Virus record (IMG/VR): IMGVR_UViG_3300022890_000098
Coordinates: 1-24,843 of that record
DNA: 24,843 nt
Direction: 5' to 3' (one strand)
Origin: a virus
The notes under the pieces are model-generated. The model saw only the letters and a program-made list of their open reading frames with translations, was not told the origin of the DNA and ran no database searches. The translations under genes and the position numbers were made by a program. This document shows positions 1 to 24,843 of the stretch, piece by piece (position 1 is the stretch's first letter; each line of letters begins with the position of its first letter).

Positions 1-54
1 GAGTTGGTCGAATGGTGTGAGCGAATCGGATGGTGTGAGTTGGTCGGATGGTGT
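1..54 (+). repeat. Three tandem imperfect 18-bp repeats inside a coding region
   Basis: Units 1-18, 19-36 and 37-54 all end in ATGGTGT and begin GAG. They differ at a few positions, mainly in the middle (TTGGTC against CGAATC). The unit length is a multiple of three, so each unit encodes one hexapeptide (SWSNGV, SESDGV, SWSDGV). The array probably continues beyond the left edge. It could change copy number by slippage without breaking the frame. Confidence 0.85.
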
Positions 55-469
55 TTATAACTGTTTATTCATCTCCAAGCAGCGTGGCGTAGCAGATATG
101 ATATTTAACAAGCAAACGAGCAAAGAACGAGCGGCACAAGTTATCGGCTTATATCGTGAAAAATTAAATGGTTGGAGGCCGAGATACAATAATGCGATTA
201 AATTATACGAGGCAAGTGGAAGAGAATGGAAAAACGTAGATGCTTCTAAGATTGAAGAAGTGGATAATAAAGTAGCATGGGAAGGTATGCCCACAGAAGC
301 TATTGATTATCTAAAGTCGTTGCCAGAGTGGAACGCTGAGATTTTTAAAGAGATAACTGGTATTGATGTAAACCAACCAAAAGTTGAAGTATTGATCACA
401 GTTAATGGAAAAGAAATAAACGAACCGATGTCGATTGAAACTGCAAAGAGATTTGGGATTGTTAGTTGA
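2..469 (+). CDS. Hypothetical protein with N-terminal hexapeptide repeats, 5' end outside window
   Basis: The reading frame is open to the left edge, so the gene probably begins outside the window; an in-frame GTG at 17 is a possible but poorly supported start. The visible N-terminus is three hexapeptides of form S-(W/E)-S-(N/D)-G-V, encoded by three 18-bp units at 1-54. A unique region follows, starting YNCLFISKQRG, then a mixed charged segment with a Trp-rich middle (NGWRPRYN, GREWKN) and a C-terminus containing VNGKEINEP. No enzyme motif is visible. Hexapeptide repeats of this kind could form a small beta-solenoid or be a variable binding surface, but that is inference. It lies upstream of the tRNA-like RNA and is co-directional with the left gene group. 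Function unknown. Confidence 0.7.
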   Translation, partial: SWSNGVSESDGVSWSDGVYNCLFISKQRGVADMIFNKQTSKERAAQVIGLYREKLNGWRPRYNNAIKLYEASGREWKNVDASKIEEVDNKVAWEGMPTEAIDYLKSLPEWNAEIFKEITGIDVNQPKVEVLITVNGKEINEPMSIETAKRFGIVS

Positions 470-2823: not shown

Positions 2824-3120
2824 TTAGTTACCACCAATCGCTACGTACTTATACGTCTTACCACTCGCATTCAATTCAGCACCAGTACCAAGGGCGAACC
2901 CTGTAGCACTCAATGTAATGGCATCTGCGGCATCCAATGCCACTGCTGTAGTGACTACACATGCGGTATCATCCGTCATGCCATCAATAAAGATACCTAA
3001 TGTATCTCCATCTTCTTCGTTAAAAATAATAAGTAAATCAGGTTTGAACCCTAGTGTTATCGTAAGGGCCCCTGCTGTTCCTTCGTATGTACCTGAGACA
3101 CACTCAAAAGGCTTTGGCAT
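2824..3120 (-). CDS. Beta-rich virion surface or fibre-type protein, paralogue A (98 aa)
   Basis: Starts MPKPFE after AAGGAGAATTATT. The whole protein is a likely beta-sandwich: glycine-rich N-terminus, LGFKPDLLIIFN strand (about residues 23-34), FIDGMTDDTA (44-53), ITLSATGF (68-75) and a C-terminal KYVAIGGN. This pattern (GFKPDL... then ITLSATGF... then Y-x-Y-V-A-I-G) recurs in phage tail-fibre and decoration proteins. It is a full-length paralogue of the adjacent gene at 3139-3435, and both share the same N- and C-termini with the larger protein at 3447-4193. It is the last minus-strand gene before the terminator. Role in adsorption or capsid decoration is inferred. Confidence 0.8.
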   Translation of the reverse strand: MPKPFECVSGTYEGTAGALTITLGFKPDLLIIFNEEDGDTLGIFIDGMTDDTACVVTTAVALDAADAITLSATGFALGTGAELNASGKTYKYVAIGGN

Positions 3121-3138
3121 AATAATTCTCCTTAATTC

Positions 3139-3435
3139 TTAGTTGCCACCAATAGCAAAGTATTTGAACACTTTAAGATTCTGATTGACTGAATTGTCAC
3201 TACCTACATCGAATCCAGTAGCACTCAAAGTAATCCCATTAGCTGCTATCAATGATATTAGACTTACCATACTGATGGCCGTATCATCGGTCATACCATC
3301 AATAAATAAAGTCAGTTGTGTCCCATCGGTAATATTGAACAAGATTAAAAGATCAGGCTTGTAGCCCAACGTAATAGTCTGTGCTGTCCCATTACCAGTG
3401 AAACTACCTGATACTCCTTCGAATGGTTTAGGCAT
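3139..3435 (-). CDS. Beta-rich virion surface or fibre-type protein, paralogue B (98 aa)
   Basis: Same length as the next gene downstream and alignable from end to end: both begin MPKPFE, contain LGFKPDLL/LGYKPDLL, FIDGMTDDTA and ITLSATGF, and end FAIGGN/VAIGGN. Residues between about 53-65 and 76-88 differ most, as expected for loops. AAGGAGAACAACA lies before the ATG. Tandem duplication followed by loop divergence is the simplest origin, which fits host-facing proteins. Function is inferred from similarity to the C-terminal domains of phage fibres. Confidence 0.8.
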   Translation of the reverse strand: MPKPFEGVSGSFTGNGTAQTITLGYKPDLLILFNITDGTQLTLFIDGMTDDTAISMVSLISLIAANGITLSATGFDVGSDNSVNQNLKVFKYFAIGGN

Positions 3436-3446
3436 TGTTGTTCTCC

Positions 3447-4193
3447 TTATTTAATTGCTACCCAGTAGAGGTCTTCACCACTTACATTAAGGTCAGCATC
3501 TACTCCAATGGAAAAGCCATTGAACATCGGGGAAATAGCATCACTACTAACTACGGACATTCCACCAGCAGTACCAGTGAAAGCTGCTGTATTAGCATGA
3601 CTATGTGTACCATCTAATGCTGCTGTAGAGGCATGGCTATGTGTTGCCAATGGTGAACAGCCTACAATCTTATATGTTCCACCATCCGTTACAGGGGGTA
3701 CACCAATACATGTTAAGACTGCTTGGGCACCTGCAACAATCGTATTACTAGCAATAAGTACAGGGGGTGAGGATGTAAGAGCATCCGCAATGAACCACAT
3801 ACCTGCTGCTGAATCTACTGCTGGCATTGTCTGATTGTCAGTGGTTGTAATTACCTGACTTGATGTAACAAACCCAGTACCACTAAATGCTGGGGAAGCT
3901 AGGTTAAGAGGAGCGGGGGTTCCTGCACTATCAGCATGGGGGGTTACAGAGATAGCTCCTCCACTATCTGCATGGGGAATTACTGCAATGGAACCATCCA
4001 CATCGGCATCTACAACCTTTACCATTGAATCTGCATCCATTAAATCATCCCAATGCGCCCTTACTAGTCCATCGACATTCATTATGAATATGGACTTAGG
4101 CCTAAATCCGCACACCACCTCTATGAGTACTCCTGTACCCTCTACAAAACCAGATGATACGTGGTTACTCAGTTTACGTTCTGCGTCTGCCAT
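3447..4193 (-). CDS. Tail-fibre-like protein with HxH repeats, expanded paralogue (248 aa)
   Basis: Residues about 20-50 (VCGFRPKSIFIMNVDG) and 222-248 (MFNGFSIGVDADLN, then YWVAIK) match the framework of the two 98-residue neighbours. Between them is an insertion of roughly 150 residues. The insertion contains two PHADS repeats (73-77, 85-89), a Thr/Ser-rich segment, and two HSH motifs (185-187, 197-199) in near-repeat units SHASTAALDG and SHANTAAFTG. His-x-His repeats in phage fibres (known from T4 long tail fibre) bind iron and hold trimers. The ATG at 4193 follows AAAGGTAGGAC. It is probably a trimeric fibre or spike tip. The start is well placed; assignment to a tail rather than the capsid surface is uncertain. 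Confidence 0.8.
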   Translation of the reverse strand: MADAERKLSNHVSSGFVEGTGVLIEVVCGFRPKSIFIMNVDGLVRAHWDDLMDADSMVKVVDADVDGSIAVIPHADSGGAISVTPHADSAGTPAPLNLASPAFSGTGFVTSSQVITTTDNQTMPAVDSAAGMWFIADALTSSPPVLIASNTIVAGAQAVLTCIGVPPVTDGGTYKIVGCSPLATHSHASTAALDGTHSHANTAAFTGTAGGMSVVSSDAISPMFNGFSIGVDADLNVSGEDLYWVAIK

Positions 4194-4722: not shown

Positions 4723-4895
4723 TATTTACCTTCTTTCTGCTTTTCTTTGAGTAGTTCATTTAGTTTATAAAGACCGTCTTTAATGTTAGATGTTGCAATA
4801 AAGTATTTCATCTTTAATACTTCATCTAATGGGGCCATAGGGACTAGTCTTTGCAATATTCCTTTTAATGCCTCTACCTCTTGTTTAACTGACAT
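4722..4895 (-). CDS. Small helical protein (57 aa)
   Basis: A 57-codon frame between two well-supported genes. The ATG (4893-4895) overlaps the TAA of the upstream gene (TAATG) and its own TAA (4722-4724) overlaps the ATG of the downstream gene the same way. Begins MSVKQEVEALKGILQRLV and ends KEKQKEGK. It is amphipathic and probably mostly alpha-helical or coiled-coil, without a membrane segment. The perfect overlaps on both sides make it a real gene. It lies between a membrane protein and a basic protein in the lysis region; role unknown. Confidence 0.75.
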   Translation of the reverse strand: MSVKQEVEALKGILQRLVPMAPLDEVLKMKYFIATSNIKDGLYKLNELLKEKQKEGK

Positions 4896-5170
4896 TATTT
4901 ATCCCCTTTTTGTAACTTCTGTATTAGTAATTCTTGGGCATGTAGTTGTTCAACTAGGTCATCTATTTGACCATCCTTAACTAGTAACTGAGCTTCTAAT
5001 ATATCTATTCTAGCTGATAGCTTTACAGCCCACTCCATTATATTACCTACTATTACACTATCTGTATCAGCACCAGCTTTACGCTTATTGAACCAATTAG
5101 TAACTAGAGAGGATATAGCACCACTACCTAGTACTAAACCTATTATCTCTACTATTCTCATAATATTCAT
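4895..5170 (-). CDS. Small membrane protein with coiled coil, holin or spanin candidate (91 aa)
   Basis: ATG 5170 follows AAAGGAGTGAGTA. Residues about 4-25 form one hydrophobic segment (IVEIIGLVLGSGAISSLVTNWF) followed by NKRKAG. The rest (about 45-88) is a long charged helix with heptad character (KLSARIDILEAQLLVKDG, then LVEQLHAQELLIQKLQKG). One N-terminal anchor plus a coiled coil is typical of inner-membrane spanin subunits and of some small phage membrane proteins. It is the first gene downstream of the endolysin, which fits a lysis role. No outer-membrane lipoprotein partner with a lipobox was seen nearby, so the spanin reading is unproven. Confidence 0.75.
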   Translation of the reverse strand: MNIMRIVEIIGLVLGSGAISSLVTNWFNKRKAGADTDSVIVGNIMEWAVKLSARIDILEAQLLVKDGQIDDLVEQLHAQELLIQKLQKGDK

Positions 5171-5239: not shown

Positions 5240-5695
5240 CTACCCTACCCCTTCTAAGTATGTTCTGAGGGCTTGTAGCCTATTTAACCAGCCTTTAAGG
5301 AACCTTCTATTACTACCTACTGCAATCGCTTTGTAAAAGGCTTCTCTACGATCTAAGTATGCTTCTAAGTTATTGTGTGAGGTGGCTAAGTATCTAGTGG
5401 CTCTGTGTACCCCACTATTTACTGCAAAGTCGAATAATGCAATGGCTACCTTTAGGGACTCTTTATTACAACCTGCTTTTAGCCAGTAATTATTGTAGTA
5501 AATATCTTTTACTTCTTTATTACTAATATCTTTTACAGGTCTATTAGGTATGTGTGTAGAACTACAATAGTTATCATAGGTCCTTTGAGTAATGCCCTTA
5601 TTAGTGGGACCACCCTTGTCATAACTATCATTGACGTAACCTCCCTCCCATCGTAGGGTGAAGGTTAGGGCTTTTATGAAGGACTCTGAGTACAT
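5240..5695 (-). CDS. Endolysin, GH108-type lysozyme (151 aa)
   Basis: Degrades peptidoglycan at the end of infection. The N-terminus (SFIKALTFTLRWEGGYVND) contains the family's catalytic glutamate in the EGGY motif (Glu17), followed by DKGGPTNKGITQRTY (about 26-40), a signature of the GH108 N-acetylmuramidase group. The C-terminal half, with NSGVHRATRYL (about 93-103) and RFLKGWLNR (about 130-138), matches the peptidoglycan-binding part usually joined to it. Length 151 is slightly short for the family (about 160-180). There is no signal peptide or signal anchor, so export needs a holin; the next gene is the nearest candidate. ATG 5695 has AAAGGG upstream. Confidence 0.9.
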   Translation of the reverse strand: MYSESFIKALTFTLRWEGGYVNDSYDKGGPTNKGITQRTYDNYCSSTHIPNRPVKDISNKEVKDIYYNNYWLKAGCNKESLKVAIALFDFAVNSGVHRATRYLATSHNNLEAYLDRREAFYKAIAVGSNRRFLKGWLNRLQALRTYLEGVG

Positions 5696-9769: not shown

Positions 9770-10084
9770 TTAATATTTAAATTTTAATGCATCTAGTAAT
9801 GAAGGGTTGCTTAGTTGTCCTGTAGCTCTATCGAATGTGGGGTTTATGGCTGCACTTACAGGAGTAGTTATACCTGGGTCTGCGCTAGCTAGTTGTCCAC
9901 CTAAGTAGGCTCCACCTACTCCTTGGGCACCGCCCATTAGCATGTCTACTAATGTGCCTCCACTCTTTAAGCCTTGTAGGGCACCCATGCCTCCTGCGGC
10001 AGCGGCTCCTCCTATGGGGCCTCCTGCGGCTGTGGCGGCTGCGGTTAGTCCTAATTTACCTATACTTTTAAGGAATCCACCCAT
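9770..10084 (-). CDS. Gly/Ala-rich small virion protein (104 aa)
   Basis: Starts MGGFLKSIGKLG after CAGGAGTATAAATC. Residues about 14-65 are dominated by Gly and Ala with hydrophobic character (TAAATAAGGPIGGAAAAGGMG), suited to membrane insertion or helix packing. The C-terminus is more polar. In podoviruses such glycine-zipper proteins are ejected first and help to form the channel through the cell envelope. It overlaps the acetyltransferase-like gene by 25 nt in another frame. Confidence 0.7.
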   Translation of the reverse strand: MGGFLKSIGKLGLTAAATAAGGPIGGAAAAGGMGALQGLKSGGTLVDMLMGGAQGVGGAYLGGQLASADPGITTPVSAAINPTFDRATGQLSNPSLLDALKFKY

Positions 10085-10641
10085 GATTTATACTCCTGTG
10101 TCCATTTGTCTTTATTTTTGTTGTAGTAGTAAGCACTCATTGAGTACCTTAGTTCGTTTTGGAACTTACCATTCATAAAGCACTCTTGTAACATTTTACC
10201 TTCTCTGAAGAAGCCTGTCTTTTCTAGGCATCTCTTTAAACTCTCGTTAGACTCTAGTATCTCTATTATTACTTTGTTGTAACCTTGTCTGTTGAATATG
10301 TAGTCCATTAGTATTATCATTACTTCATTAGTTAGGCGTTTATTTTGTTGTTCTTTATCTATTATTATACCTATGTAACAGGCTTTATTCTTTTTGAAAC
10401 AGGGTACTAATTGAGCTAAACCTATTACGGAGTTGTCTGTTAGGGAATGGGCCATGAATACTTCACCACCTATTACATTGTTATAGTTCTGGAAGTCGGC
10501 TTCGGTGAACATTCTTGTAAACTGTCGGAAGAAGCCTTTGTAGTCTTCATTGTAGAACCATTGAGCTATGTTGGTCCAGTATTTACTCTCGAAAGGGAGT
10601 AACTGTATTGTTGTTCCTTTTAGCATTATCTTGTTATCCAT
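10060..10641 (-). CDS. GNAT-fold acetyltransferase-like protein with degenerate cofactor loop (193 aa)
   Basis: The protein follows the RimJ/RimL layout: LLPFESKYWTNIAQWF near the N-terminus, YIGIIIDKEQQNKRLTNEVM (about 89-108) at motif A, and LESNESLKRCLEKTGF (about 129-144) plus REGKM at motif B. The family transfers acetyl groups to amines. Here the cofactor loop, normally R/Q-G-x-G-x-A, reads Q-N-K-R-L-T, so both conserved glycines are missing. It may not bind acetyl-CoA and could have been reused as a structural part, or it binds differently. ATG 10641 has TTGGAGAACAG upstream. It sits between appendage and ejection genes and its 3' end overlaps the next gene by 25 nt, so it is firmly in the late operon. 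GNAT-like genes beside tail genes are known from other podoviruses, role unclear. Confidence 0.8.
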   Translation of the reverse strand: MDNKIMLKGTTIQLLPFESKYWTNIAQWFYNEDYKGFFRQFTRMFTEADFQNYNNVIGGEVFMAHSLTDNSVIGLAQLVPCFKKNKACYIGIIIDKEQQNKRLTNEVMIILMDYIFNRQGYNKVIIEILESNESLKRCLEKTGFFREGKMLQECFMNGKFQNELRYSMSAYYYNKNKDKWTQEYKSWVDSLKV

Positions 10642-13226: not shown

Positions 13227-15149
13227 TTATTCTGCTATCATCCTGTATATTATTCTCATTGATTTGATTGCCATTGGGGAATCTATTGTGGAGTTGTAGA
13301 AGCCGAACCTTCCTAAGTAGGCTTTTCTGTTGGGGTAGAATCTTATTAGGGAGTATTTACTTCCAGCCCATTTGAATGTATTCCATTTACCACTGTTCCA
13401 TTTAGTAGAGGTTGTTATTGTAGCTACTTCTGATTTTACTACGTAGTCTCTACCATTCTCTTCCCATGTGTTAGTTAGGGTGTTGGTGGGGGAAGCTGCT
13501 CCGGTAGTTGCTAGGTAGTTTACTGATTGGAAGCCTTTTAAGCCTATGGCATCTTTTCCTACTTCCCATTGGTCTTTTACTAGGAAGTATATTGGATCTG
13601 AATCATCGTTGGTCCCTATACCATATTGACATACTTTACCATTACTGTTACTGCTACCGAAGTAGGGTTCTTGTAGTCCATTTATTATGGCTGACCATAG
13701 GCAGCTTATTGGGAGTCCTGGGTGGGTTGTAGGGTCTACTCCTGGTCCGAACATGGTCCATGCTACTGAGGTGCCGCTACTGTAGTGTCCTACTATCTGG
13801 TAGTCTGGTTCTAGTTCTCCATTACGTACTACTGATAGTATTATTTGGCTAGGGTAGAGGTATTCATAGACACTGAATTTATAGGATTGGTCGAAGTTAA
13901 ATGTTCTTATTGTGTTACGTATTCGGTTAGCTACTGCTTTGACTACGAAGCCATCTGTCATGTATACGTTGTCTCTGCCTAGCCATGCCATGTTGTCGCC
14001 TATGGAGAATATGGTGTGGAAGCTAGTTGCGGTACAAGGGTCACTTAAGCCTCTGTAGAGGTACTTCTTAGAGCCACCTGTTTCTAGTCCTCCTATGGAT
14101 AGATCTAGTGGTAATAGTTTACCTATTTTAGTTTCTTTTACTACTCCTACCTTAGTGCCTATCATTCCTAGTCCTACTACTACTTCGCCATCATTTATGT
14201 TGCAGTCTACTAGGTCGGCTATTTGGAAGGATTCAAACATTGAGCCGTTGATGCCTATCTTAGAGTATTGTATTCTGCTCTTGTTTGAGGGGAAGCCTCC
14301 TACGAATAGTCTATTGTCTGCTAATATGGCAAATTTGGCTGCTTCGGGGAGTCGGGAATCATCTAGTTCTAGTTGGTCACCTAGTCCTGCGTCTGATGAT
14401 TGGGAGGTGTAGGTGGTGGCATCTATTGTGGTGGAACCCTCGAAGAAGTATATTGTGCCTCCACTGGCTGTGCGGTATACATCTATTGTGTCGGCGGTAT
14501 CTGAATCTCCTGGGGTTATAGTAATCTTAATGCCGTTGGTACCCGCTGCTTGGGTACCTGCCGTTAAGGTGGGGCTAGGGAGGGAAGGGGAGGATTGGGC
14601 ACCTGTTACTGAGTTACGGTATTTGTATGTGTATACGTAAAAGCCTCCATCATTTAGGTTGCCGGAGGTTAGGGAGTTTAATGAGGGAGCTACGGAGGGT
14701 TCTGTGATGCCTATTTGTCTTGTTGAGGTTCCATCATATATTAGGTCTGATATGCCTGTGAATATGAATAAGAGGGGTCCTGCTTGTACTAGGCAGGGTT
14801 TAATACCGTCTGGTAAGCCTGTTGTTATGTCTACAATGGCTCCGCCTACTACTACTCTTCCCAGTATGCCACTAGAGCCTGTTACTGTAGTTGATTCTAA
14901 GTATACTATGTGTTCTTTAGTTCCGTCTGATTTAGTGTATTGTATACCATTTCTTACGTTGTAGTTAGATTTAGCTGTGGTGACTCCTACGTAGCCTGGT
15001 CTTGTTTGTAGTATGTTGGAGTCTGCCATTACTACGTTTAGACCTTCGGATAGGGTATTGAATATTTCTTCGGATTCAAGTGGTGTAGTGTTATCTACCC
15101 CATTGCTGAAGTTTCTTTTGGGTTTATATTGTCTGTTTAGAGTAGCCAT
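13227..15149 (-). CDS. Large tail-hub / nozzle-type protein (640 aa)
   Basis: The N-terminus, QYKPKRNFSNGVDNTTPL followed by a segment ending RPGYVGVTT, is typical of the big podovirus tail protein that follows the adaptor (role of P22 gp10 or T7 tail tubular protein B). A fibronectin-like segment (YVYTYKYRNSVTGAQSSPS, about 185-203) precedes a propeller-like body with recurring strand motifs (FAILADNRLFVGGFP, GLGMIGTKVGVVKE, GDNMAWLGRDNVYMTDGF). Together with the 238-residue adaptor it would build the short tail that closes the portal after packaging. The SD sequence is weak; the gene starts 7 nt after the adaptor's stop, so translation is probably coupled. Confidence 0.8.
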   Translation of the reverse strand: MATLNRQYKPKRNFSNGVDNTTPLESEEIFNTLSEGLNVVMADSNILQTRPGYVGVTTAKSNYNVRNGIQYTKSDGTKEHIVYLESTTVTGSSGILGRVVVGGAIVDITTGLPDGIKPCLVQAGPLLFIFTGISDLIYDGTSTRQIGITEPSVAPSLNSLTSGNLNDGGFYVYTYKYRNSVTGAQSSPSLPSPTLTAGTQAAGTNGIKITITPGDSDTADTIDVYRTASGGTIYFFEGSTTIDATTYTSQSSDAGLGDQLELDDSRLPEAAKFAILADNRLFVGGFPSNKSRIQYSKIGINGSMFESFQIADLVDCNINDGEVVVGLGMIGTKVGVVKETKIGKLLPLDLSIGGLETGGSKKYLYRGLSDPCTATSFHTIFSIGDNMAWLGRDNVYMTDGFVVKAVANRIRNTIRTFNFDQSYKFSVYEYLYPSQIILSVVRNGELEPDYQIVGHYSSGTSVAWTMFGPGVDPTTHPGLPISCLWSAIINGLQEPYFGSSNSNGKVCQYGIGTNDDSDPIYFLVKDQWEVGKDAIGLKGFQSVNYLATTGAASPTNTLTNTWEENGRDYVVKSEVATITTSTKWNSGKWNTFKWAGSKYSLIRFYPNRKAYLGRFGFYNSTIDSPMAIKSMRIIYRMIAE

Positions 15150-15155
15150 ATTATA

Positions 15156-15872
15156 TTAGCAGTTGTTCCACCATACGCATCTTAGGAAATCGTCGTAGGT
15201 TGTTCCGTAGGGTTGTAGTTCTTCTTCCCAGAATTTGAATCTTGCTCCGTTTTCTAGGTGTTTCATGTCTGCGTTTATTGCGTTTCTTTTCCACAATGCT
15301 TCTATTTCTTTGAGTAGGTTGTCTCTACGGGTATCATTGTCAATAATCATTGCCTCGGCTAGTACCATCTTCTCTAATAGGTAGTGACAATAATCGGGTA
15401 CTCCTGTGATGGATTCTATATCATCTGAGTCACTAGTCATTAGTACTGCTTTTGATTTGTACAAGTATTTCATGACGTATATGCCATCTGGAATGCTGTC
15501 TAAATATATATGTTTAGATCCCCAAGGGGCATACCTCCTGGGCTTACCTGCTTCACTGCCTCCTGGGAACTGTTTACGGATTATGTGTAGGTCTACTTTA
15601 GCCATGAATGTCTTGTTAGTAGAGTCCCAGATTACTTCTAGGTCTTGTGAAGATCTTACGTAGGCACTAGATACTGAGAGATCATAAGATTCTGTACCAT
15701 CTACTGTACTGAATGTACCATCTTTGTGTGTCCAAACCCAATCGTGCATATCAAATAAGGCGAATAGCATCTGATCTATACGTCCATCTAGGAAGGATAG
15801 GAAATCGGTATCTCCTGGTCTTTCTAGGAAAGAGGCTATGTTGTTCTTAAGTTGTAAGCGGGTCATTGCCAT
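15156..15872 (-). CDS. Head-to-tail adaptor protein (238 aa)
   Basis: ATG 15872 after AAAAGGAAATAACC. Begins MAMTRLQLKNNIASFLER and continues with an acidic/aromatic helical stretch (IDQMLFALFDMHDWVW), then a beta region with SYDLS and PRRYAPWGS, and a C-terminal helical part (YLLEKMVLAEAMIID, ending CVWWNNC). This matches the phage adaptor family (P22 gp4 / T7 tail tubular protein A in role), which sits under the portal. Its position directly upstream of the large hub protein supports this. The Cys/Trp-rich C-terminus is unusual. Confidence 0.75.
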   Translation of the reverse strand: MAMTRLQLKNNIASFLERPGDTDFLSFLDGRIDQMLFALFDMHDWVWTHKDGTFSTVDGTESYDLSVSSAYVRSSQDLEVIWDSTNKTFMAKVDLHIIRKQFPGGSEAGKPRRYAPWGSKHIYLDSIPDGIYVMKYLYKSKAVLMTSDSDDIESITGVPDYCHYLLEKMVLAEAMIIDNDTRRDNLLKEIEALWKRNAINADMKHLENGARFKFWEEELQPYGTTYDDFLRCVWWNNC

Positions 15873-15874
15873 GG

Positions 15875-16507
15875 TTATTTCCTTTTAGCTAGCATTAGGG
15901 GTAGTAAGAAGAATGCTCCTAGAGCTGCTCCATAGTGTCCTAAGTGAGCTATTCCATCGGGGGCTATGAGGGATATACCAGAACGCATGCCTTCGAGCAT
16001 AAAGTAGAATAATGCGGGGAGTATTAAGAGTGGTCTTTTTTCCATTATATTGTGGAGTATCCATATCATCATCATTCCGAAGATACTGCCACTGGCACCT
16101 ATTGCGTGGGCATTGGGGAGGAAGAGGGCGAATAGGGCACATCCAAATATACCAGTTACTATATATGCTAGTAGTATAAATATACTTCCGTATTTCTTTT
16201 CTATTGGGGGGAAGATGAAGGATAGGAATAGCATATTGCCTAAGAGGTGGCGTACGCTGCCATGTAAGAAGCATGAGGTAATATATGTGTACCATACACT
16301 GCTATTTAGTGCGAAGCATTCAGTGAAGTTAAAGACTAGTATCTGTACTATAAATAAAGCTATATTGACACCTATTAGTAATTGTGTCATTGGGACATGT
16401 TTTGCTGGGATGTCCCTGTTAAGCATAGCCATGGGAGGCTGTGAGAGCCTCGCTACGGCCTTAACTAATCTTTTTAGGGGTCTGAGTACCTTAGTTAGAA
16501 AATCCAT
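15875..16507 (-). CDS. Rhomboid-family intramembrane serine protease (210 aa)
   Basis: Cleaves membrane-spanning proteins inside the lipid bilayer. All family signatures are present: H82-x4-H87-x3-N91 (HGSVRHLLGN), matching the GlpG positions that form the oxyanion pocket; GASG at 137-140 with nucleophile Ser139; and catalytic His188 in AHLGHYGAALGAF. About six membrane helices are visible (roughly 41-60, 88-100, 108-130, 136-153, 160-172, 185-205), the minimal bacterial form, with a basic cytoplasmic N-terminus of about 38 residues. ATG 16507 has ACAGGAG upstream and overlaps the preceding small membrane-protein gene by 13 nt, so the two are co-translated. It sits in a late virion operon, between adaptor and capsid genes. 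Substrate unknown. Confidence 0.92.
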   Translation of the reverse strand: MDFLTKVLRPLKRLVKAVARLSQPPMAMLNRDIPAKHVPMTQLLIGVNIALFIVQILVFNFTECFALNSSVWYTYITSCFLHGSVRHLLGNMLFLSFIFPPIEKKYGSIFILLAYIVTGIFGCALFALFLPNAHAIGASGSIFGMMMIWILHNIMEKRPLLILPALFYFMLEGMRSGISLIAPDGIAHLGHYGAALGAFFLLPLMLAKRK

Positions 16508-16770
16508 AGTAATGCTCCTGTTAGTACTGGTATTAGTAGTTTACTGCCTAAGTCCCAATATGTGTCTAATCCTTTAAAACCATCTACAATGAATTCATCG
16601 TATAGGTGCCATATTATCCATGCTACTATAATGGTAGGGCTTACTAGGTAACCTAATAACGATACTGCTATTGACCACCCTAGGTGGGCTGCAAACTCTA
16701 CTCGTTCTAGGTAGGATATTAGGCCACACTTGGTTAGTAGCTTTATTAGTGGGGTTAGGGGGTTAAACAT
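16495..16770 (-). CDS. Small polytopic membrane protein, VanZ-like pattern (91 aa)
   Basis: ATG 16770 after AAAGGTAG. Two to three membrane segments (about 27-40, 42-55, 73-91) enclose conserved-looking polar residues: ERVEFAAHLGWS (about 22-33), HLYDEFIVDG (about 55-64), DTYWDLGSKLL (about 69-79). The order E/H in helix 1, H-x2-D-E after helix 2, and D-x2-D-L before a final G-A-L-L helix recalls VanZ-type proteins but is much shorter. It overlaps the rhomboid gene by 13 nt, so it may be a partner or substrate of the protease. A holin role cannot be excluded. Confidence 0.7.
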   Translation of the reverse strand: MFNPLTPLIKLLTKCGLISYLERVEFAAHLGWSIAVSLLGYLVSPTIIVAWIIWHLYDEFIVDGFKGLDTYWDLGSKLLIPVLTGALLWIF

Positions 16771-20330: not shown

Positions 20331-21317
20331 TTATCCACCTGTAGCTGCACCACGGATTTGGATACAAAGATCGGCTCCTGCACCCTCATGGTCTGAGAAT
20401 GATCCACCGACATAAGTGCTACCGAACTGCATTTTATATCCTACCGTTGCAATCTGGTTGAGAGGATCGGATGATCCTGCACTGCCCTGTTGCTTGGTGA
20501 TTAGTTCAATGAAATCTGAATCAAAGGATGTAAATGCGAAAGCGTTTCTTGCAAACATTAAGGATCTGTAGACTGCAATACTGCTGGCATTGTCTACGGA
20601 GTTGATGTTATTCGATTCAACGACTCTAGCACCATAGACTTTGCCTACTTCGCCTTTGAGAGGTTTTTCGGCTAGTCCGGCTACGTATTTGTTTAATTCA
20701 ATGAAGCCACCTGCTGATGTGTCACTCTGGATGTCCATACTAATTAGATCATGGACTACCCAGGTGTAAGAACCATCGTCCATCTTAGGTGCATCTTGTC
20801 CTTTGAGGACTCTTACTGCTTTGATGGAATCTTGGGCTATGAATACATCTGTAGCGGTTACTGTGTTATCTGCGGCTATGCCACTACCTACGTACTGTAT
20901 GTTGGATGTGGCTCCGGCTATACAGACGTTACGGACTAATGAGTCTGCTGATTTAGCAGCGTCGTAGCTTAGTTCTTTAACGTGGTCTTCCATTACGGGG
21001 TCAATAGCTGTAGAGACTAGCAAATCAGTAATGGGGATGTACTTACCATACTGTTTCATGCTTACAGTGTACTTGGTTGTTTTGAGTGACGAGGCTGTTG
21101 GGGTTACACCTTCACTCAGTTCACTGAGGTCTTCGGCTATGTGCCCATATTTCAATACGTAGCTGTCTTTACCCGTTCTGCGAGGGTGGAGCAGTTTCTT
21201 GCCTAGTTGTACTATCACGAGTTTTTTCTTTGCTTGTTCTAAAAGCAGTTTGAAATAATAACTGTGTAAGTTATCACTCATGTTAGTTGTGTTCTGTGCG
21301 AATCCTGCGGAAATCAT
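20331..21317 (-). CDS. Major capsid protein, N4 gp56-type (328 aa)
   Basis: Forms the icosahedral shell. The protein has the layout of the N4 gp56 capsid family: N-terminal segment, LLEQAKKKLVIVQLGKKLLH helix, GKDSYVLKYGHI (about 49-61), YGKYIPITDLL (about 91-101), a long middle with SYTWVVHDLISMDIQSD (about 181-197), and a late strand region (YKMQFGSTYVGGSFSDHEGA). Length 328 fits. The gene follows the scaffold gene directly and has a strong site TAAGGAGTAACAT before ATG 21317. A hairpin follows the stop. The fold is presumably HK97-like, as for all tailed phages. Confidence 0.85.
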   Translation of the reverse strand: MISAGFAQNTTNMSDNLHSYYFKLLLEQAKKKLVIVQLGKKLLHPRRTGKDSYVLKYGHIAEDLSELSEGVTPTASSLKTTKYTVSMKQYGKYIPITDLLVSTAIDPVMEDHVKELSYDAAKSADSLVRNVCIAGATSNIQYVGSGIAADNTVTATDVFIAQDSIKAVRVLKGQDAPKMDDGSYTWVVHDLISMDIQSDTSAGGFIELNKYVAGLAEKPLKGEVGKVYGARVVESNNINSVDNASSIAVYRSLMFARNAFAFTSFDSDFIELITKQQGSAGSSDPLNQIATVGYKMQFGSTYVGGSFSDHEGAGADLCIQIRGAATGG

Positions 21318-22169: not shown

Positions 22170-22472
22170 TTATATTCCAAATTCTCTTATGTTGTTTTCG
22201 TCTTCTATTATGTTCTGTATATCCTGGTGTAGTTTTTCTTTTATTGCTTTGGCTGATTGTAGTGTTTGTATTACACTGTTGAATGCTCTATATCTTTCTT
22301 GTAGTACCATTAGTTTGTTGAAGTCTTTTTCTAGTAGTAGGGCTTCCATTACTACAGTCTTTACTTCGCCTAGGTGGTCTAGGAGTACTTTCCAGCCCTC
22401 TTGTTCAGTTAGTCTTTCTAGTGATTCATATTTTTTGGCTGCGATTACTACGCTCTCTTTTTCGTGGTTCAT
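22170..22472 (-). CDS. Small coiled-coil head-region protein (100 aa)
   Basis: Start ATG overlaps the portal stop (ATGA), so translation is coupled. Almost entirely helical with heptad-like spacing (ALLLEKDFNKLMVLQERYRA, then LQSAKAIKEKLHQDIQNIIE). No known enzymatic motif. A short helical protein between portal and scaffold is common in N4-gp56-type podoviruses, perhaps acting in portal or scaffold assembly; that role is inferred. Confidence 0.75.
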   Translation of the reverse strand: MNHEKESVVIAAKKYESLERLTEQEGWKVLLDHLGEVKTVVMEALLLEKDFNKLMVLQERYRAFNSVIQTLQSAKAIKEKLHQDIQNIIEDENNIREFGI

Positions 22473-24346
22473 TGTTGTCCACCTTCCTCACCACCTTGTA
22501 GTTGTGATATGGGTACTACTTGGACGGGTTGACCCTTTTCATCGACTAGTTGTCCATCTTCTGTTTGGACTACTATTGTGGGGCCTTCGGGGAGTACATA
22601 TTCTGCTGGTCTTGAGAAGCCTTTTAGTTCGAAGGCTTTTGTGCCTAGTTTCTTTATGTCGAATGTTCCTGGTTTTACCTTTTCTATTTGGCCTACTACT
22701 TGGAGCATGTAGTTTAGGGATTCTGCTTGTTCAGCTATTGTTTTCCTTATTGGGGTAGATTCAGGTATGAAGTCTATATCTGACTTGAAGGCTAGAGAGT
22801 CTAATGTACTGAAGGGATTGACTTCATCTCCGGTTACGCGATATTCTAGTTGGTCCTTGCTGCCATCTCCTAAGAACTGTCTGTTGTACCAGAGTAGTAT
22901 TCTAGCTAAGGGCCTTATGAATGTGTATTGTAGGAGTTTGGCTTTGGCTGATATGCGTAAGCCTGTGGAGCTTGCTAGGTAGTTAATGCCGGTGGCTGTA
23001 CGACCGAAGGCTGCTCCTACGTTACTTACGTCTTGGCGAGGGTTTAGTATTTGGGTGGTGTTTTGAATGTCGTAGTCTATACTGCCTACTTCTTCTACGG
23101 AGGCGGGGTTGGGGCCTGTGTTCTCGAATTTTTGTATGCCATTGAGATCATCGCATAGGACTACTTTATCTGGGCTAGTGTAGAGTTCTCTAGTGTTAAT
23201 GCCGGATTGTCTTTCTACTAGCCACATGCTATTTAGTGACATGTTGGTTCTGTCTAGTCTCGCGTTGCGTAGGGCAGTGGATTCGGATATTAGACCTTTA
23301 ATGTGGTTTAGTTCGCCGTAGCCGTAGGTTTCACCGTCTATGGGGTAGTCGTAGGACATTACGAATGGTTTGAATTTGTATTTGAAAGGGTTTGGGTCTT
23401 TACGTAGTAGTATGGGTTCTAGTTCACTTGGGTAGGCTATTACTATTAGTACTGGTTCTTTGTAGCCCTTACCTAAGTTGTATCTGCCCCACCATTCTAC
23501 TACTCTCCATTTACCTTGGTTCTTTTGTTGTTGTTTGGATTGGTTGCTGTAGAGGGCTAGGGCTGCTTCTTTGGAATGGTTGGATTCAGGTTTGTTGGCT
23601 GGTACGGGTTCTTCTGATATGGGGGTGTTGGGGTCTTTCTTTCCTATTAGTTTCTTTATTTTGGAGTGGCCTCTCCAATAGTTCTCATTATCTAATAGGT
23701 CGTCGGGATCTCTGTAGACTTCGTGGGCTACCCATTGCATTCTTTGGATGTCACAGTCTACGGAGCCTTTGGGGACCATGAATTCGAATAGGCTTAGGTT
23801 GTAGAATCTGGGACCGTCGAACATTACATCGTCTGAGGTTAGGGATTTGGGTTCGGGGTTGCCTTCGTCAAATTCTAGTTCGTCGGGGTCTAAGTCTCTT
23901 TCTATTGTGTCTTCTTCCCATATTATCTTCATTACGGAGTTACCTAGTTTTCCTAGGTTTCTGAAGTATTTTCTCATTTCTGGGTAGAAGTCACCTACTT
24001 CTAGTTGCCATTGGGTGAAGTTGCTTACGTCTGCTGCTGATTCTACTACTTCTTCGCCTTTAGTTCTGGGGGAATAGGCTATGTAAGGGGTTTCACCGAA
24101 CATTAGTTCTGATAAATGGTCTACGAAGGGTTCTATTTGTTGGAAGGCTATTGGGAGTTCTAGGTTGGCTCTGCCTCTGGGGGTGTTCTTTTTGGAGGCT
24201 CCTTTGGTGTAGAGGTACTCGAATACGTTCCACTTTCTTCTGAGGGGTCTGTAGAAGGTTTCGGAGTCTTGTAAGAGGCCAGCTACGTAGTCTATACATG
24301 CTTGAGTAGCTTTGCTTTTAGACGTGCTTTTATATGCTTTAGCCAT
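22469..24346 (-). CDS. Portal protein (625 aa)
   Basis: Dodecameric ring at the capsid vertex through which DNA is packaged and ejected. The N-terminus (basic, then YVAGLLQDSETFYRPLRRKW) and central segment (NLELPIAFQQIEPFVDHLSE, then FRNLGKLGNSVMKIIWEED) match the portal family of podoviruses. The wing/stem region includes a GEL helix after YPIDGETYGYGEL, NARLDRTNMSLNSMW and a C-terminal Gln-rich barrel-like tail. Length 625 is within the family range. It lies just downstream of the terminase with an 8-nt gap; its SD is weak, so coupling to the terminase stop is likely. Confidence 0.85.
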   Translation of the reverse strand: MAKAYKSTSKSKATQACIDYVAGLLQDSETFYRPLRRKWNVFEYLYTKGASKKNTPRGRANLELPIAFQQIEPFVDHLSELMFGETPYIAYSPRTKGEEVVESAADVSNFTQWQLEVGDFYPEMRKYFRNLGKLGNSVMKIIWEEDTIERDLDPDELEFDEGNPEPKSLTSDDVMFDGPRFYNLSLFEFMVPKGSVDCDIQRMQWVAHEVYRDPDDLLDNENYWRGHSKIKKLIGKKDPNTPISEEPVPANKPESNHSKEAALALYSNQSKQQQKNQGKWRVVEWWGRYNLGKGYKEPVLIVIAYPSELEPILLRKDPNPFKYKFKPFVMSYDYPIDGETYGYGELNHIKGLISESTALRNARLDRTNMSLNSMWLVERQSGINTRELYTSPDKVVLCDDLNGIQKFENTGPNPASVEEVGSIDYDIQNTTQILNPRQDVSNVGAAFGRTATGINYLASSTGLRISAKAKLLQYTFIRPLARILLWYNRQFLGDGSKDQLEYRVTGDEVNPFSTLDSLAFKSDIDFIPESTPIRKTIAEQAESLNYMLQVVGQIEKVKPGTFDIKKLGTKAFELKGFSRPAEYVLPEGPTIVVQTEDGQLVDEKGQPVQVVPISQLQGGEEGGQQ

Positions 24347-24354
24347 TTAGGTGC

Positions 24355-24843
24355 CTATATGGGGAATCCGGTGGTGGGGTCGTATTCTTGGGATTGGTTG
24401 TTGTAGGGTTTAGTGGAGTTGTTTAATGATGTTCTTAGTACGAGTACTTGTTCCCAGGCTAGGGCTAGGGCCATTATTCTATCATCTCTTGCAGAGCCTT
24501 TAGCTCCTAGTTTGCCTGTCTTTTCATCTACTACGAAGGTGCTTAGTTCTCCTATTGTGTATTTATCATATACTTTTAGATCCCCATCTCTTAATGCTGC
24601 TTTTAGGTTGCTTATTAGGTTGTTTTTGTTGCCGCCTGTGGTTCTCCAACCTATTGTTTTAGTCTTTTTCTTGGTGTACTGGTCGTATTCGTATCTCTTA
24701 TATAGATAGGGGTATCTTAGGCTGTTACTGTATACCCCTGATAGGTTTGTTATTACTGCGTGTCCACTATTGTTCTCTTCTACTATTACTCTAGCTTTGT
24801 TGTAGAAGTGTCCTGCTTTATATATCTCAGCTGCGTAGTTGTC
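24355..24843 (-). CDS. Large terminase, C-terminal nuclease part, 5' end outside window
   Basis: The frame runs from the right edge to TAG at 24355-24357, 163 codons minus stop. It is the C-terminal half of a packaging motor subunit: ARVIVEENNSGHAVI (about residues 18-32 of the visible part), TIGWRTTGGNKNNLISNLKA, and the nuclease signature KGSARDDRIMALALAW, in which the two Asp residues bind metal in an RNase H-like fold that cuts concatemeric DNA. The ATPase part lies beyond the window. Its place before portal, scaffold and capsid genes is the classical head module order. Confidence 0.88.
   Translation of the reverse strand, partial: DNYAAEIYKAGHFYNKARVIVEENNSGHAVITNLSGVYSNSLRYPYLYKRYEYDQYTKKKTKTIGWRTTGGNKNNLISNLKAALRDGDLKVYDKYTIGELSTFVVDEKTGKLGAKGSARDDRIMALALAWEQVLVLRTSLNNSTKPYNNQSQEYDPTTGFPI

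Follow-up and report, generated by a model that had tools for sequence, protein, structure and literature searches.

Rhomboids are intramembrane serine proteases that occur in all domains of life and, to our knowledge, the functions of most bacterial members remain unclear. What, then, would such an enzyme do for a phage that encodes it among its late genes? The question is raised by the virus record IMGVR_UViG_3300022890_000098 of IMG/VR, analysed here over its whole length (24,843 bases, referred to below as the window), which does not imply a full phage genome.

Identity of the rhomboid and organisation of the late genes

The gene under study and the landmarks of the late strand are listed from upstream to downstream.

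24355..24843, minus strand: terminase, C-terminal part, cut by the contig end (phrog_24361, 1.2e-22)
22469..24346, minus strand: SU10-type portal (PF23899, 7.8e-17)
20331..21317, minus strand: major capsid protein, used as the marker for finding the lineage (phrog_1357, 2.3e-50)
16495..16770, minus strand: small membrane protein, 91 aa, 2-3 hydrophobic segments (27-31% identity; immediately ahead of the rhomboid in the window and its relatives G004 and G012)
16515..16519, minus strand: AGGAG, Shine-Dalgarno-like, 7 nt ahead of the rhomboid ATG and within the upstream gene (read from the sequence)
15875..16507, minus strand: rhomboid-family intramembrane serine protease, 210 aa, six-TM-helix rhomboid core (PF01694, model and orthologues)
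15156..15872, minus strand: SU10-type head-tail adaptor, beginning 2 nt past the rhomboid stop (PF24175, 2.5e-10)
13227..15149, minus strand: 640-aa late protein, weak connector match (phrog_8040 head closure, 1.8e-4; 72% identity in G004)
5240..5695, minus strand: GH108 endolysin (PF05838, 3.3e-27)
4895..5170, minus strand: coiled-coil protein with a single TM, neighbouring the endolysin and oriented N-out/C-in according to the positive-inside rule, candidate substrate

An intact open reading frame occupies exactly the positions at which a preliminary description of this DNA had placed a rhomboid protease, on the minus strand, a detail absent from that description. Its product matches the Pfam family Rhomboid PF01694 in a profile search (2.9e-23, 83.1 bits for a curated cut-off of 22.6), and its AlphaFold model, built from 32 sequences (pLDDT 85, pTM 0.78), was paired by Foldseek with GlpG chains at a probability of 1.00 and a moderate TM-score of about 0.55-0.69. 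Both the identity of the protein and its predicted activity are well supported, and we hold them to be highly probable.

The surroundings also agree with the preliminary description, which had mentioned a phage late operon, an adjacent adaptor and an overlap with a membrane-protein gene. Indeed, the start of the rhomboid overlaps the upstream 91-aa reading frame by 13 nt and, because of this overlap and of the 2-nt gap before the adaptor, the small membrane protein, the rhomboid and the adaptor probably share one message. The minus strand showed no terminator-like site from the capsid gene to the rhomboid and adaptor, and no tRNA gene was found in the window or in the relatives scanned. The rhomboid gene is part of the late operon, in which it is coupled to the small membrane protein and to the SU10-type adaptor.

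Active site

Residue invariance was judged over 52 aligned rhomboids from phages, bacteria and archaea, which gave the following assignments.

16235..16264, minus strand: HGSVRHLLGN, with H82, H87 and N91, the TM2 oxyanion-side residues (invariant in 52/52)
16091..16093, minus strand: codon of the catalytic Ser139 (GASG; invariant in 52/52)
15935..15937, minus strand: codon of the catalytic His191 (AHLGH191YG), the dyad histidine (invariant in 52/52; aligned with the GlpG TM6 His)

The preliminary description had proposed Ser139, His188 and the H82/H87/N91 set as catalytic residues. The serine and the H/H/N set stand; the histidine has to be moved by three residues. Position 188 is variable among the 52 rhomboids (Y in 23, H in 15, W in 6 and other residues in 8), and the orthologue of G012 (L015) carries a Tyr there while keeping H191. 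The latter residue is also invariant in alignment A8, whose profile search pairs it with the TM6 His of GlpG (GAHIAG), and in cellular homologues, which have GVAYWAHIGGF or GVAHWAHAGGF at this place, conservation falls on the last His. Since H191 is invariant and aligned with the GlpG histidine whereas position 188 varies, we assign the dyad to Ser139/His191; His188 is present but is ruled out as the catalytic histidine. A mutant of H188 would consequently be the wrong test of activity. The claim that the enzyme should be active holds as a prediction, through Ser139/His191, and Ser and His are kept in the phage homologues, whose lack of these residues the preliminary description had named as a result that would speak against it.

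Conservation of the locus in one phage lineage

Relatives were located by a capsid search. Single-protein queries of viral and genome contigs gave no match, and alignment queries succeeded. Rhomboid orthologues were found at L011:10547-11158 and L015:9959-10555. The order of the window recurs in G004 (41,550 bp), running from the small membrane protein (30% identical) through the rhomboid (65%) and the adaptor (73%) to the 640-aa protein (72%); it is the same again in G012 and in three near-copies from other datasets, whose rhomboids are 54-58% identical to that of the window. In L012, the first 45 rhomboid residues are present before the contig ends, and, going by coordinates, the capsid-bearing contigs without a rhomboid (L008, L009, L010 and L116) stop short of the site. 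Every contig of the lineage found to extend across it has a rhomboid. The search for phage homologues and gene neighbourhoods recommended in the preliminary description thus gave orthologues with the same flanking genes in independent assemblies.

Two further relatives, G010 (41.2 kb) and G011 (35.9 kb), with capsids 57-60% identical, carry a rhomboid in a second place. There the rhomboid and the adaptor are separated by 12-16 kb, with the virion genes largely in the same order. The immediate predecessors of the rhomboid in G011 are a Phage_lysozyme gene (2.6e-42), the gene of a coiled-coil protein with a single TM and that of an Rz-like spanin (0.0011). The G010 rhomboid lies downstream of genes for an M15-type endolysin and a coiled-coil protein, from which one unassigned ORF separates it. 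This adjacency to lysis genes was seen in G010 and G011, the window rhomboid being about 10 kb from the endolysin. Both proteins keep the H/H/N set, the Ser and the His, G010 having GASV for GASG. Altogether a rhomboid is present, with Ser and His kept, in all five species, all of them uncultured, of this podovirus-like lineage, and none was seen in twelve distant capsid relatives (about 30% identity, fragments).

Between the two groups, rhomboids are about 25% identical, compared with 38-41% for the GNAT acetyltransferase and 41-44% for the 640-aa protein. A tree including the long branches parted the two podovirus rhomboid groups at a starred branch, whereas they were joined (support 81/60) once the long rows were removed. 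Because of this low identity and of the disagreement of the trees on a single origin, the rhomboids of the two groups might do different jobs. Recruitment may even have happened twice, once in each of the sister groups and each time to another place of the late operon.

Several other features of these genomes were recorded. The late operon of 5/5 podovirus-like phages includes a conserved gene for the GNAT acetyltransferase, with 38-67% identity (window 10060-10641; L011:16520-17101; L015:15976-16566; L140:16108-16644; L139:12861-13427). ORFs of the early strand with short tandem peptide repeats (SDGVS-type and NARVYGNAWV-type) occur in the window (1-110) and in G010 (L138:9170-9757 and L138:6375-7013). 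In both groups the late operon closes with small proteins that are related and share a motif of the G(Y/F)KP type; those of G010 and G011 come immediately after the rhomboid (window 2824-4193; L100:6212-8041; L139:1091-2061; L141:5885-6517). Finally, G011 has a phage integrase (L141:9335-10609, PF00589, 4.4e-19) and may therefore be temperate; no integrase was noticed among the G004 ORFs read.

Rhomboids in other phages and comparison with known systems

The enzyme family is known and viral rhomboids are already in databases. The window protein matches phrog_16931 (3e-07), a rhomboid family already recorded in phages together with annotated viral rhomboids, and structural matches in BFVD include A0A8S5Q3G3 (Siphoviridae sp. 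ctLqe90), A0A8S5QAB7 (Podoviridae sp. ctsfx1) and A0A6J5NSS0 (uncultured Caudovirales phage). The family is nevertheless rare in phages, as the preliminary description had stated: 6 of 50,697 phage records gave a rhomboid match, all of them weak. At least three of these six matches (L002, L003 and L006, from INPHARED) look like bacterial DNA by their neighbours; their rhomboids lie, judged by eye, among housekeeping-like bacterial genes, which points to host DNA in these records. A search of the open-access literature turned up no functional study of a phage rhomboid.

Rhomboids of large phages (L103-L108, L111, L112; L004, L005) share the same invariant residues but form a separate clade (100/99) with another gene context. 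In three of these large phage contigs, a sigma-70/ECF-like gene (Sigma70_r4_2, 2.8e-11), a small ORF of 72-94 aa and the rhomboid follow one another (L103:8725-10456; L107:8722-10456; L112:8801-10459). The arrangement comes in two diverged types, those of L103 and L112, each with the sigma-70-like gene two genes ahead of the rhomboid.

Among characterised enzymes, GlpG of E. coli and H. influenzae (PF01694) has the same six-helix core, with the GxSG Ser on TM4, the His on TM6 and the H/H/N set on TM2, but the phage protein is only about 19% identical to it, belongs to a phage late operon and, judged by its length, has no N-terminal cytosolic GlpG domain. It scores 32.7 bits with the GlpG equivalog TIGR04239, well below the cut-off of 250. 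Rhombosortase (TIGR03902) is of similar size and shows a weak profile similarity to the five phage rhomboids (26-41 bits, with 27.3 for the window and a maximum of 41.4 for G010, under a cut-off of 84). Rhombosortase has a His at the position of GlpG Tyr205 (PMC3237569), whereas the phage rhomboids have no His four residues after the Ser (F143 in the window; F, C, S and S in the other four). A scan of the available sequence of the five phages for GlyGly-CTERM targets gave no convincing target. With a score below the cut-off, the His absent and no phage target, assignment as a rhombosortase acting on GlyGly-CTERM proteins was rejected.

Selection and candidate membrane partners

The rhomboid is under purifying selection, as judged from substitution rates within the window's group (dN 0.27-0.43 and dS 0.9-2.4, the larger dS values being saturated), and its constraint is close to that of the adaptor and of the GNAT. 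By comparison, the small membrane protein has changed far more rapidly (dN 0.68-1.05). It has no Pfam, PHROG or NCBIfam match, except for the G012 copy against a holin PHROG (E 0.11), no phage match by tblastn, and a structure model of low confidence (pLDDT 69). Its assignment to a known family was accordingly rejected, that holin PHROG being the sole profile match. A holin is expected in the window since the GH108 endolysin has no evident signal, and the small membrane protein is a holin candidate by size and topology only.

A hydropathy scan of the late strand gave few convincing membrane proteins, namely the small upstream protein, the single-TM coiled-coil protein and the rhomboid itself; the weaker hydrophobic segments of other ORFs are probably not transmembrane. 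G011 also encodes a spanin-like protein, as does G004 on the opposite strand. Several PHROGs found in phages at large resemble the TM-coiled-coil type. A rhomboid-type motif is visible by eye in its helix in four genomes, deep in the TM; as a recognition motif it was set aside as uninformative, on account of this depth and of its frequency by chance.

Possible role of the rhomboid

Rhomboids are directed by a P4/P1/P2' motif to cut transmembrane proteins close to the periplasmic face (PMC2941825). In bacteria, AarA of Providencia stuartii activates TatA by trimming its periplasmic end (PMC3712462, PMC2941825), and other rhomboids clear orphan membrane proteins (PMC7232013) or deliver substrates to FtsH (PMC7231995). 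By analogy with the family, the phage enzyme would sit in the host inner membrane, where it would cut transmembrane proteins near that face. A role in the late phase of infection is suggested by the neighbours of its gene, which encode membrane or lysis proteins. In our proposal, the gene is a stable one of a single podovirus-like lineage, expressed from the late operon, and its product an active intramembrane protease whose most likely target is a membrane protein from the phage's own late or lysis set. The substrate would be the co-encoded small membrane protein in the window's group and the coiled-coil or spanin-type lysis proteins in the other, and the cut would switch it on or clear it around lysis, much as AarA activates TatA; the likeness to AarA, which activates a small N-out membrane protein by trimming, lies in this proposed action only. 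The weakest step is the choice of a phage late protein as the main substrate.

The preliminary description had left the choice among several jobs open. A late, phage-internal membrane job gains weight from the position of the rhomboid after endolysin and spanin-type genes in two relatives and from its coupling to the small membrane protein in three. Counting against such a substrate, the small membrane protein is not adjacent to the rhomboid in G010 and G011; because of this, and since the TM-coiled-coil type resembles PHROGs from phages at large, neither candidate evidently needs the rhomboid everywhere. Moreover, adjacency in dense phage operons is weak evidence for partnership. Taken whole, with a phage late membrane protein as the class of substrate, the proposal remains tentative, although it is the reading that we prefer. 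Its sharpest version, in which a timed cut of a co-encoded phage membrane protein triggers or completes lysis, is doubtful; no description of lysis control by such a cut was found in searchable papers.

The substrate could also come from the host. Bacterial rhomboids do cut membrane proteins of host type (PMC7232013, PMC7231995), and cleavage of inner-membrane proteins involved in receptor assembly, signalling or defence, which would block superinfection or silence a membrane sensor, fits the restriction of the gene to one lineage, as expected of a host-specific need. The late operon is nevertheless a late position for such a role, nothing ties the gene to defence, and we regard this explanation as rather unlikely, though not far behind the preferred reading. 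Genes for exclusion or anti-defence are usually early. Removal of orphan or misfolded proteins, as by GlpG, Rhom7 or YqgP, is a documented role of bacterial rhomboids (PMC7232013, PMC7231995) that would here concern proteins piling up with late phage membrane-protein synthesis or when host synthesis stops. It would explain why position and neighbours differ between the two groups; yet most phages do without a rhomboid and the host presumably has its own, one being present in 14/14 control genomes, so that we consider such quality control slightly less likely than a host target, though it too comes near the preferred reading.

The remaining explanations are weaker. That the gene is a moron, a borrowed cellular gene without phage-specific function, agrees with a cellular family limited to few phage lineages; it appears improbable in view of the five species that keep the gene with an intact dyad, of a dN well below dS, of its conservation with capsid and adaptor in the window's group and of the lack of any spanning contig without it. 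Processing of a virion component, for instance an ejection-machinery or capsid-side protein, was suggested by the position of the window gene between capsid-side genes and the adaptor, but a six-helix membrane enzyme works in lipid and, in G010 and G011, the gene stands apart from the adaptor while the virion genes keep their order; we consider it very improbable. As for host DNA wrongly joined to the phage contig, which the preliminary description had named as a possible refutation, the bacterial look of other rhomboid matches in phage-labelled records gives it some precedent. The gene order recurs in contigs assembled from separate metagenome datasets, with proteins 65% and 54-58% identical, which excludes such a misjoin for practical purposes, and host contamination was rejected.

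New here is the evidence for a rhomboid as a kept gene of one phage lineage, located in two places of the late operon. With few late membrane proteins in a small genome, the phage partners of the enzyme are narrowed to a handful, which makes a simple co-expression search feasible. If the partner is indeed a late phage protein, this would be a phage using intramembrane proteolysis for its own programme.
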